Positions 2,531 to 5,285 of a DNA stretch of 64,000 nt are shown here, in pieces. A program made the translations under genes and the position numbers. Each line of letters begins with the position of its first letter. The first letter of the stretch is position 1. Under the pieces are notes generated by a model. That model made no database searches, was not told the origin of the DNA, and saw nothing but the letters and a program-made list of their open reading frames with translations. The stretch is taken from the NCBI RefSeq assembly GCF_003428875.1, contig NZ_QQRS01000002.1, forward strand, positions 62,001-126,000, read 5' to 3'. The DNA comes from Planomicrobium okeanokoites (lineage in GTDB: Bacteria > Bacillota > Bacilli > Bacillales_A > Planococcaceae).

Positions 2531-3169
2531 TCATTCTCCTCCTTCGCTGCGGTTTGAAACCTCAGCTGCTGTTTTTTGCTGATAGGCAATCAAATTTTTT
2601 ATCGTCAAAATGCCCATTCCCAGCCTTTCAGCCACCTTGACCAAATCGGGGACTCTCGCCATCGTTCCATCTGCATTCATGATTTCACAAATAACACCTG
2701 CCGGAGCTGAACCTGCAAGCTTTGCCAAATCCACTGCTGCCTCGGTATGCCCAGAACGTTCGAGTACGCCGCCATCTTTAGCGATCAGCGGAAACACATG
2801 GCCTGGACGCTTAAAATCTGAAGGCTGCGCATCTTCATTGATCAAGCTCAATATTGTATGGGAACGCTCAAAAGCGCTGATTCCGGTGGTCGTATCTTTA
2901 TGATCCACACTGATGGTGAAGGCAGTGCCATATTCGTCTGTATTTTCGTCAGTCATCAACCCGACTTTGAGTTTTTTGGCGAGTCCTTCTGTGACAGGCA
3001 CGCATATCAACCCTCTGCCTTCAGTTGCCATCAAATTGATGATTTCAGGTGTCGCGTGTTCTGCCAACGCAATAAAATCACCTTCGTTCTCACGGTCCTC
3101 ATCATCAATAACAATGACTGCCTTGCCTTGTTTCAAATCTTCCAACGCTTGTTCCACTTTGTAAAACAA
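2531..3169 (-). CDS. ribB: 3,4-dihydroxy-2-butanone 4-phosphate synthase, stand-alone
   Basis: RibB converts ribulose 5-phosphate to 3,4-dihydroxy-2-butanone 4-phosphate. Family motifs are all present: [39 protein letters not shown] and the C-terminal [15 protein letters not shown]. The frame stays open upstream, but TTG 3169 is seven bases after AGGGAGG and leaves no overlap with ribE; ATG 3193 is the alternative. In most Bacillales this domain is fused to GTP cyclohydrolase II (RibBA, about 400 aa). Here the protein ends at 212 aa, just after the DHBP domain, and ribH follows at once, so the cyclohydrolase half is absent from this locus. Confidence 0.93.
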
Positions 3170-3182
3170 AGTTATGCCTCCC

Positions 3183-3815
3183 TTAGAATCCATGTTCCGC
3201 CAGCCAGCTTCTCGACATTTCCGGTTTATCGGACTGTTGGATCCGTTCTGTATATTTCGCCAAAAGATCACACTCGATGTTGACGCGTTCGCCAATCCCT
3301 TTTTCACCCAGCAATGAATCTTCCTGTGTAGTAGGAATCAATGAAATCGCGACTGTATTTTTGCCAACCGAAAAAACCGTCAGAGATGTGCCATCTACGG
3401 ATATGGACCCTTTGACCATCATGTATTTCATCAATGAAGATTCCAGTTCGATTGTTTTTGTTACTGCATTCGATTCTTTATTCACTGTACGGATGACACC
3501 AACGCCATCAACATGGCCACTTACAAAGTGTCCGCCAAAACGTCCATTGGCCGGCATCGCCCTTTCAAGATTTACACGCGCACCGGTCCTCAGGTCAGAC
3601 ATGGTTGAGGATTTCACTGTCTCGGGAATGACATCGACTGTAAAAGAATGCTGATCATAAGTTGACACTGTCAAACAAACACCGTTGATTGAAATGCTGT
3701 CCCCTCTTTTGATGTCTTCCAAAATCAGAGCACAGGCAATCGTCAATTCCATAGCTTGAGGTTTTGCGCGAAGCGAAGTGACATGTCCCACTTCTTCCAC
3801 AATTCCTGTGAACAT
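3183..3815 (-). CDS. ribE: Riboflavin synthase alpha subunit
   Basis: The enzyme dismutates two 6,7-dimethyl-8-ribityllumazine molecules into riboflavin. The 210-aa sequence starts [10 protein letters not shown] and contains two lumazine-binding repeats, with the hallmarks SINGVCLTV in the first and SVDGTSLTV in the second. GAGGAG lies eight bases before ATG 3815; an upstream in-frame ATG is ignored. The ATG shares one base with the stop of the preceding 94-aa ORF (TGATG), which points to translational coupling. Confidence 0.96.
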
Positions 3816-4099
3816 CAGGCACACTCCTCTATTCTTTTTTTGGCATTGATAACTGATTGTTTCGATCGATAGTATGGGTATTTTTCCACCATGGGGCGAA
3901 TGGGTGGTGGGGATAGGGTTGCAGAGTAGGTTTGAGATGGTTTTACTATTACCGATGTGCCGAACTTCTCTTCATGAATTGCGGGCAAACAAATTTTTGC
4001 CGTGCCCAAATAACCCTCTTTTGCGAGGGTGTGTGTAAATTCACTTGCAGTTTGAGAATCTTTGAACTTGAAATACTTTTTTGAATTGGTTCGTTTCAT
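3815..4099 (-). CDS. Unknown 94-aa protein, first gene of the FMN-riboswitch operon
   Basis: I do not recognise this protein. It is basic (many Lys and Arg), with a predicted alpha/beta start (residues 8-45, KYFKFKDSQTASEFTHTLAK onward), a proline-rich segment SPPPIRP near 63-69 and a helical, lysine-rich end. It has an excellent GGAAGGAGG site, its stop overlaps the ribE start by one base, and it occupies the place where ribD stands in Bacillus. It shows no cytidine deaminase zinc motif and no RibD reductase motif, so it is not a recognisable ribD remnant. That it is translated is likely from context; the function is open. Confidence 0.7.
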   Translation of the reverse strand: MKRTNSKKYFKFKDSQTASEFTHTLAKEGYLGTAKICLPAIHEEKFGTSVIVKPSQTYSATLSPPPIRPMVEKYPYYRSKQSVINAKKRIEECA

Positions 4100-4107
4100 A
4101 TAATTTT

Positions 4108-4137
4108 CCTCCTTCCGATTCGGTTATCGAAAAGAAG
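4108..4137 (-). promoter_or_regulatory. Hairpin sequestering the ribosome binding site of the 94-aa ORF
   Basis: On the minus strand, arms 4137-4126 and 4119-4108 can form a 12-bp stem (three G-U pairs) around a 6-base loop. The 3' arm is the AAGGAGG ribosome binding site itself. No terminator with a T run lies between the riboswitch and the gene. This suggests that the FMN riboswitch acts by blocking translation initiation rather than by terminating transcription. The pairing was worked out by eye. Confidence 0.55.
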
Positions 4138-4162
4138 AGGCACATAACAAATAGAGCATGAA

Positions 4163-4321
<159 letters not shown>

Positions 4322-4408
4322 ATTCAATTCGATTATTTGTCCTTTCCATAGTAGCATAGGATAAAAGAAGAAAACATCATTTCACCACCAGCGAAAGGAG
4401 AATTGTAA

Positions 4409-4738: not shown

Positions 4739-4771
4739 AGCACAAGGCAATTTACGCCTTGTGCTGTTTTT
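4739..4771. terminator. Bidirectional intrinsic terminator
   Basis: The stem GCACAAGGC with its complement around a 7-base loop is followed by GTTTTT on the plus strand and CTTTTC on the minus strand. It overlaps the last codons of the GNAT gene and ends both convergent transcripts. Confidence 0.85.
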
Positions 4772-5246
4772 CAATTCTCATACTCATTACAATCTGTTCC
4801 CCGCTCGTACGCATGAAACGCCTGCCCGTATCTTCGAACCCGGCTTTTTCAAAAAGTCTCTTCGCCGGTTTATTCCTTGCATTCACTCCCAGAACGACTT
4901 CATTAAAATCAGGAAATTCAATACGAATAAAATCCTGCAGAGCGTATATCGAACCTGTTGCAATCCCGCGCCCCTGGAATTTTGGATTTACAGAAAAACC
5001 TCTCAATAATAAAGCGTCGGGATTATTGGAATATTTTTTCCTGTCCTCTGATTCATCCAGTTCGAGAAAACCCGCGGCTTCGCCTCTCGCATGAATAATG
5101 ACAAGATGCTTCAGCGGATTCTCCACATCGCGCTTAATGATATCCTGCGGCATTCCAGAAAACTCCAATTGTTCTGTAGGCAGCTCATATTCAACAGAGA
5201 TTTTCGGATTGTACAAGCTGAGGGAAACTTCCTTTTTCTTGATCAT
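4752..5246 (-). CDS. GNAT family N-acetyltransferase
   Basis: The 164-aa protein carries the acetyl-CoA pyrophosphate-binding signature PKFQGRGIATGSIYAL (Q/RxxGxG/A type) in its middle and the C-terminal NxxAxxLFEKAGFEDTGR motif of the GNAT superfamily. GAAGGGGAG lies five bases before ATG 5246; a longer reading from upstream is not supported by a ribosome binding site. The acceptor substrate is unknown. It has its own terminator within the 3' end. Confidence 0.85.
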   Translation of the reverse strand: MIKKKEVSLSLYNPKISVEYELPTEQLEFSGMPQDIIKRDVENPLKHLVIIHARGEAAGFLELDESEDRKKYSNNPDALLLRGFSVNPKFQGRGIATGSIYALQDFIRIEFPDFNEVVLGVNARNKPAKRLFEKAGFEDTGRRFMRTSGEQIVMSMRIEKQHKA

Positions 5247-5285
5247 GATTTCTCCCCTTCTCTGTAGCATTGTGAATTGATGAAG

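Follow-up and report, generated by a model that had tools for sequence, protein, structure and literature searches.

Why should a small open reading frame (ORF) with no recognisable protein product stand as the first gene behind an FMN riboswitch in a riboflavin operon? In the window, by which we mean the whole 64,000-nucleotide stretch of Planomicrobium okeanokoites DNA that was analysed, such an ORF of 94 codons lies between the aptamer and ribE. An earlier note on this DNA had described it as the first frame behind the FMN switch, with a strong ribosome-binding site (RBS), overlapping ribE at TGATG and replacing ribD in position, and all of this is correct. The ORF follows an RF00050 aptamer of 106.5 bits, AGGAGG stands ahead of its ATG, its TGA overlaps the ATG of ribE by one base, and the intact operon ribD of relatives occupies the same place. 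Its RBS sits where that of ribD itself would, and the same layout of RBS and ATG behind the switch is found with the intact operon ribD of relatives. The features of the locus are as follows.

4159-4326, minus strand: aptamer of the FMN riboswitch (RFN element); RF00050 by cmscan at 106.5 bits, gathering score 66.2
4107-4138, minus strand: hairpin covering the RBS of the leader ORF; 13 pairs, local fold -15.4 kcal/mol
4111-4134, minus strand: conserved core of the RBS hairpin, CUUUUCGAU/AUCGGAAGG
4108-4113, minus strand: AGGAGG, ribosome-binding site for the leader ORF, read from the sequence
3815-4099, minus strand: 94-codon leader ORF, probable ribD relic; ATG start, open frame, unconserved peptide, ribD homology via the 38-nt element
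4013-4030, minus strand: small relic hairpin, ACCCUC/GAGGGU; alignment A2 (seven sequences), helix 1
3983-4007, minus strand: relic hairpin, GGGCA/UGCCC; alignment A2 (seven sequences), helix 2
3880-3917, minus strand: 38-nt element conserved as nucleotides; matched in 91 of 91 regions by an expression composed after viewing them; encodes PFLTTRLPHGGK in the intact ribD of relatives
3886-3907, minus strand: element core CCACCCATTCGCCCCATGGTGG; CCACC/GGUGG around a loop with GCCCC
3813-3817, minus strand: TGATG, stop of the leader ORF and start of ribE with one-base overlap, read from the sequence
3183-3815, minus strand: ribE, riboflavin synthase; TIGR00187, 232.7 bits
2531-3307, minus strand: ribB (DHBP synthase), the ribA half of ribBA being absent; PF00926 match, no PF00925
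2061-2534, minus strand: ribH, lumazine synthase; TIGR00114, 194.4 bits

The results suggest that the ORF is probably a relic of ribD, selected as an open frame plus a cis element and not as a protein. We also lean towards a wider reading, in which an RNA element acting in cis, about 38 nt long and not described before, lies inside the ribD coding sequence over PFLTTRLPHGGK in several Planococcaceae genera and serves the downstream riboflavin genes. It would have outlasted some ten independent losses of ribD, with the gene around it decaying or becoming an FMN-controlled ribosome relay. In the literature searched, no earlier account of the relic leader or of the element was met.

The remark in the earlier note that the 94-aa product has no known motif was confirmed, with no family found in Pfam or NCBIfam, each searched up to E 1, or in PHROGs, and no convincing relative in the PDB (best E 1.5). 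It also matched no RibD model (TIGR00326 or the RibD domains). An AlphaFold model was poor (pLDDT 53.6, pTM 0.25), which is weak evidence because the alignment used was thin (3 sequences). A protein search of 100 genomes gave nine matches at E <= 0.01: the genome of the window, seven others of the genus (G003, G005, G007, G012, G018, G026, G037) and one from another family (G087, E 0.001). A full-scoring FMN riboswitch lies just upstream of all eight matches outside the own genome except G037 and G087. Around the G087 match there is no FMN riboswitch, and a stop interrupts the matched frame of G012. Named relatives are Planomicrobium sp. Y74 and Planococcus halotolerans, and relatives at the protein level in the same context are limited to part of one genus.

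Substitution patterns are no more protein-like. In the clade with the 94-codon form dN/dS ranged from 0.35 to 1.26 with a mean of 0.84 (15 pairs, six species), and the same DNA in its two other frames gave 0.47-1.52, so that the own frame did no better; a second clade gave 1.0-2.2 (nine pairs with a value, of ten). The comparison of synonymous and non-synonymous change proposed in the earlier note thus indicates little constraint at the protein level, with values near 1 or above. The best-conserved stretch reads (L)SPPPIRPMVE in some species; in sister species this DNA falls in another reading frame and gives FLTTHTPHGGK. The suggestion of a new regulator, binding protein or enzyme part was not borne out.

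A different picture emerges if the frame rather than the peptide is considered. ribE was found in 45 of 46 genomes of the genus and stands in two operon types: the type of the window in 31 (ribE 70-100% identical), and another in 14 (ribE 46-49% identical) that does not carry the element pattern given below. Thirteen of these 14 have a full-length ribD between switch and ribE, and in the remaining one (G022) ribD is gone. The 31 window-type leaders were collected through ribE and all were read. A recognisable RBS and start were present in 20 and missing in 11. In 19 of the 20 there is no stop in frame up to ribE, compared to 2-8 stops in each of the two other frames; 15 of these open frames stop 0-1 base from where ribE begins and four (G017, G020, G023, G028) extend 16-20 bases into ribE. 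The exception is G018, where the frame is broken at codon 30. Openness of the leader frame exceeds chance, and the ORF is probably translated. The earlier note had named frequent frameshifts as grounds for discarding its view, and a broken frame was seen in just one of 20 leaders. The conservation that it proposed to look for was seen in the open frame and not in the protein, whose relatives in the same context cover part of one genus.

Several further arrangements were seen in the genus. Thirteen genomes with the other operon type (G004, G009, G011, G013, G019, G021, G022, G024, G025, G027, G034, G041, G044) carry two full FMN riboswitches in tandem with starts about 240 nt apart, for example at L076 142-510 and L078 138-509. 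In G022 (L078) a 336-aa open frame runs behind the tandem riboswitches from a RibD-like N-terminal start into ribE, without the element, and looks as if it were a relic fused to ribE. The operon riboswitch of G006, G032, G037, G038 and G045 appears as two low-scoring halves with some 170-330 nt between their starts, as though the aptamer contained a large insertion. G043 has no ribE match and a single FMN riboswitch, and therefore seems to have lost the operon.

By sequence comparison the 94-codon ORF is probably what remains of ribD. A ribD DNA profile searched against 57 leaders found 52 at E <= 10, the own leader with E 4.2e-7 at profile positions 654-698. With the element masked, 21 leaders still matched, none of them among the 31 from Planococcus, whose leaders gave weak collinear ribD matches outside the element (E 0.19-0.45) in the unmasked run only. 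For Planococcus, a ribD origin of the part outside the element is suggested by its position, by these weak collinear matches and by the series of relics elsewhere, since the operons of three other genera (g3, g11, g12) hold full-length ribD as well as relics of many lengths. When all 57 relics were aligned to one intact ribD, the element was in each case better matched than the rest. The best 30-nt window averaged 0.86 in the 31 Planococcus relics and 0.95 in the 26 others, versus 0.19 and 0.40 for median windows; weaker peaks of similarity lie at the gene start and at reference positions 420-480. In the Planococcus relics the identity of the element is 0.68-0.95, but outside it no more than 0.14-0.27 of the intact reference finds a match; in the young relics G227, G243 and G245 this outside fraction is 0.75-0.82.

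The distribution of the conserved stretch was followed at the nucleotide level. All 31 window-type leaders carry a stretch like CCTTTCCTCACCACCCATACGCCCCATGGTGGAAAG, including the 11 without an ORF. The pattern CCACCCN{2,4}GCCCCWTGGYGG occurs in 68 of 261 genomes of the family, in four of 19 genera, with one copy per genome, and gave one control match. In the operon upstream regions read from g3, g11 and g12 the element lies inside ribD or a ribD relic and encodes NPFLTTRLPHGGKNP. Of these 60 regions 40 were picked for carrying the pattern and 20 for lacking it (15 from g3, five from g11); a further 12 ribE-bearing genomes of the same listing fall outside the 60. A single expression, composed after viewing the regions, matches all 91 regions of element-bearing lineages (31 from Planococcus and the 60 others), of which 57 are relics. 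The distance between element and riboswitch varies from 137 to 763 nt (77 regions).

Retention in dead genes is nearly complete. The element is kept in 57 of 58 ribD relics, and since 20 of those with the element were found through it, the more informative set is the 37 (31 plus six) that were found independently, all of which carry it. The exception is G022, which belongs to the other operon type and has 20 mismatches in 41 positions; two intact ribD genes of that operon type (G040 and G041) do not have the element either (19 and 20 mismatches of 41).

Conversely, the element does not accompany ribD to other places. All 46 genomes of the genus have a full-length ribD somewhere, in the own genome at C22:264736-265782 (G000; 401.7 bits, cut-off 156.35), where it overlaps a stand-alone ribA (L177 371-1129 and 1116-2204). 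FMN riboswitches of the own genome are confined to C1 and C12, with none at the ribA-ribD pair. In the relocated ribD of 20 genomes the element is absent, with 18-22 mismatches in 41 at best. Codon usage follows the same division. Counted where two genes share the amino acid, codon identity in 20 intact operon ribD genes was 0.90 in the motif versus 0.52 elsewhere, the motif being the top window; this set is biased since it was found through the pattern. An unbiased set of 14 intact operon ribD genes, chosen for lacking the pattern, gave 0.86 versus 0.49, with the best window starting 10 codons further on. In 19 relocated ribD genes the corresponding values were 0.44 and 0.45.

The loss of ribD from the operon appears to have occurred repeatedly. 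A RibE tree was built from 60 rows (22 with full-length ribD, 37 with a relic, one unclassified; 11 of the 31 Planococcus genomes included), and along it the label changes ten times, with a bootstrap range of 10-12 and at least six changes forced by well-supported branches. The 22 full-length genes are 17 that were assigned by rule and five accepted as full-length after reading of the zinc motif. If no relic was ever revived, these changes may be read as about ten losses of ribD, a number that horizontal transfer of the operon could inflate. Together, the evidence for selection on a nucleotide signal is strong.

Searches beyond these lineages gave little. No family of Rfam 15 matches 3880-3917 at gathering or up to E 5. 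A covariance model of the element (R1) scores 59.7 bits (E 9.9e-14) on the own genome, a member of its training set. In 398 genomes of the class this model matched 28 at E <= 0.01, five of them outside the family (E 3e-4 to 4e-3), and a loose pattern gave 23 matches, 21 within the family, the others being G098, taken as chance, and G313. The model matches in G470 and G541 lie in ribD before ribE, with the aptamer 3' end GGATGGGAG upstream as a string match, and were rejected as element copies because the GGTGG arm is missing. The other three matches outside the family, and a weak one within it (G054), are located in other genes. Thus, leaving G313 aside, the loose pattern and R1 found no convincing copy outside the family in these 398 genomes. 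Among 20 ribD loci of other genera (19 genomes) ribE follows in three: G190 and G191 of g53 and one G112 copy (g2). In the g53 pair, where the 3' end of the switch was seen in G190 only, the element is absent; in G112 the operon copy of ribD carries a partial element and the other copy none. The second FMN riboswitch of the own genome (L014 772-1437, minus strand) has no element found with it; it precedes a membrane protein, which we take to resemble the riboflavin transporter RibU.

The element may act as a folded RNA. It folds as a hairpin in most of seven examples, with z values of -1.2 to -2.8. Across 34 sequences two structures of the stem show two and three two-sided changes, numbers reached by 21 and 7 of 500 shuffles, respectively; structures slid by 2-3 columns give as many such changes, with far fewer paired cells. 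Changes compatible with pairing include CCGCC/GGCGG in G001 and ACCGCC/GGCGG in G252 and G268, which have an intact ribD. The stem is thus weakly supported. Support is fair for a hairpin further upstream in the relic, for which 12 sequences show nine cells with two-sided changes (two of 500 shuffles) in three pairs (207 of 500), and slid versions give 0-2 cells. Of the two hairpins aligned in seven sequences from the clade of the window, GGGCA/UGCCC has 97% of its cells paired and appears as AACA/UGUU in G018; two of its pairs change on both sides (25 of 500 shuffles), as many as in slides of -1 and -2. ACCCUC/GAGGGU has 88% of its cells paired and no two-sided change. RNAalifold on the whole leader returned little besides the element stem.

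How far other explanations fit has to be considered. A functional small protein, whether a regulator, a flavin-binding protein or an enzyme part, would account for the strong RBS, for a start and length conserved over 94 codons in six species without indels, for the 19 open frames of 20 and for a mean dN/dS slightly below 1. The same dN/dS values, near or above 1, argue against it, as do the lack of a family or credible structure match, the reading of the best-conserved DNA in different frames, the 11 of 31 leaders that have no such ORF, and homologues in the same context that are confined to part of one genus, and we regard it as highly improbable. Even less credible is a plain pseudogene that still resembles ribD for want of time to decay. 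Some relics are indeed young, those of G227, G243 and G245, and the relic of G022 has no element. However, in Planococcus the element has stayed recognisable where the rest of the gene has nearly vanished, the codon constraint predates the loss of ribD, the frame stays open, and the intact ribD of the G022 operon type is also without the element in both genes read.

If a nucleotide signal is under selection, it could also act as DNA, as an operator or as part of an internal promoter for ribE-ribB-ribH. In this respect it is relevant that a second promoter of the B. subtilis rib operon, ribP2, is named in an excerpt of PMC9863419. The inverted repeat TTTCC..ACC / GGTGGAAA, the single copy per genome and the independence of both reading frame and riboswitch distance (137-763 nt in the 77 regions) would suit such a site. 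Yet no conserved -35/-10-like sequence was seen by eye in the short flanks of the 91 regions, conservation of the middle equals or exceeds that of the arms, and two-sided changes preserve pairs (G001 and G003, and G252 and G268 in intact ribD), which makes a DNA site unlikely. Two other options invoke RNA. Untranslated C-rich RNA could promote Rho-dependent termination or cleavage from which translation gives protection. This polarity would agree with the C-rich sequence, with the location inside translated frames of intact ribD and within the leader ORF that stays open in 19 of the 31 genus leaders, and with FMN control of leader translation. The 11 leaders that keep the element without an ORF, and in which it would always be exposed, count against it, as does the fact that rut sites are less conserved in sequence than the 38-nt element; we consider it improbable. 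The loop GCCCC could, on the other hand, pair with the unpaired GGGGC of J1/2 of the FMN aptamer and lock the FMN-free state. Both motifs are invariant in the 76 genomes compared, J1/2 is unpaired in the Rfam structure, and a strong duplex is predicted (about -19 kcal/mol). However, the partners show no coevolution, own pairs averaging -18.86 and shuffled pairs -18.93; 1312 of 2000 shuffles equalled or surpassed the own pairs. The distance between element and aptamer is also highly variable. Such a latch is very improbable.

We therefore return to a cis-acting signal that would serve ribE-ribB-ribH. Its absence from relocated ribD and its independence of frame, ORF and switch distance favour a cis job for this message, and with a weak stem and a conserved C-rich loop the signal would more likely be RNA than DNA. 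As a first guess, it may direct processing or stabilisation of the mRNA or bind a protein ahead of ribE. This assignment is tentative and drawn by analogy, and the evidence for any specific job is weak. An excerpt of PMC11780869 describes a hairpin inside B. subtilis cggR that stabilises gapA mRNA. In both cases an RNA signal in the coding sequence of a first gene would act for a downstream gene; here, in contrast, the stem is weak, the loop strongly conserved and the signal outlives its carrier gene, and cleavage is only putative. In two relatives a terminator-like hairpin was seen downstream of the aptamer: AAGTGCTCGAAGCACTTTTTT, by eye, after the aptamer in L062 (G032), which suggests that the expression platform differs among element-keeping species, and CTCGCTTTTGCGAGGAGATTTTTT between riboswitch and element in a relic leader of another genus (L112, G168).

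A role can also be proposed for the open frame that surrounds the element. A hairpin core of nine pairs covers part of the leader RBS, with standard pairs in all 20 leaders that have an ORF and one G-C to A-U two-sided change between clades. In the window the hairpin reaches 13 pairs over the whole AGGAGG and is also present in a 551-nt fold. From these folds, the hairpin at 4107-4138 is likely the OFF structure of the riboswitch. With FMN bound, it would hide the RBS and leave the leader untranslated; without FMN, ribosomes would translate the relic and restart at TGATG, whereby RibE is made. A dead ribD could in this way still relay the riboswitch signal to ribE. We infer this relay on fair evidence. 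It is not general, since 11 of the 31 genus leaders have no RBS-bearing ORF.

Comparable arrangements are known. For M. tuberculosis ppe2 a relay from a B12 riboswitch through a uORF with an AUGA overlap has been measured, and the excerpted text of PMC11260477 terms this uORF an indispensable relay. The order of an aptamer, a short translated frame and a stop/start overlap with the real gene would be the same here. The ligand differs, FMN instead of B12, and here the uORF would be a shrunken ribD and the coupling is inferred. Among rib operons with an FMN riboswitch (RF00050), a full aptamer followed by an RBS-covering hairpin is as expected for riboswitches that control translation; what sets this leader apart is that control falls first on the frame of a gene relic, without a conserved protein product. 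The relation to RibD itself (TIGR00326) is similarly divided: where ribD is intact the element encodes PFLTTRLPHGGK of RibD, whereas the 94-aa product matches no RibD model.

The proposed history amounts to a natural experiment that separates protein from nucleotide function, in which ribD was lost time and again, the protein with it, and the signal remained. It also cautions that a small 'unknown protein' encoded behind a riboswitch may be a translated relay. For the vitamin B2 operon, the element would be an unannotated control point that can be tested. Being compact, present in a single copy and easily recoded without touching RibD, it makes the question decidable in a single laboratory strain.

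The operon ribBA is reduced to ribB (window 2531-3307); a GTP cyclohydrolase II domain (PF00925) was looked for in this gene and is absent, the own genome having PF00925 only at C22, where ribA and ribD form the separate overlapping pair (L177 371-2204). Ten of the 31 window-type genomes of the genus also keep a ribA domain in the operon. Upstream of the riboswitch lies a GNAT acetyltransferase-like protein, labelled by eye (window 4752-5270, minus strand), which has clear homologues at six loci of the genus (L004-L008 and L010). B. subtilis ribT, a member of the rib operon, is likewise of GNAT type.
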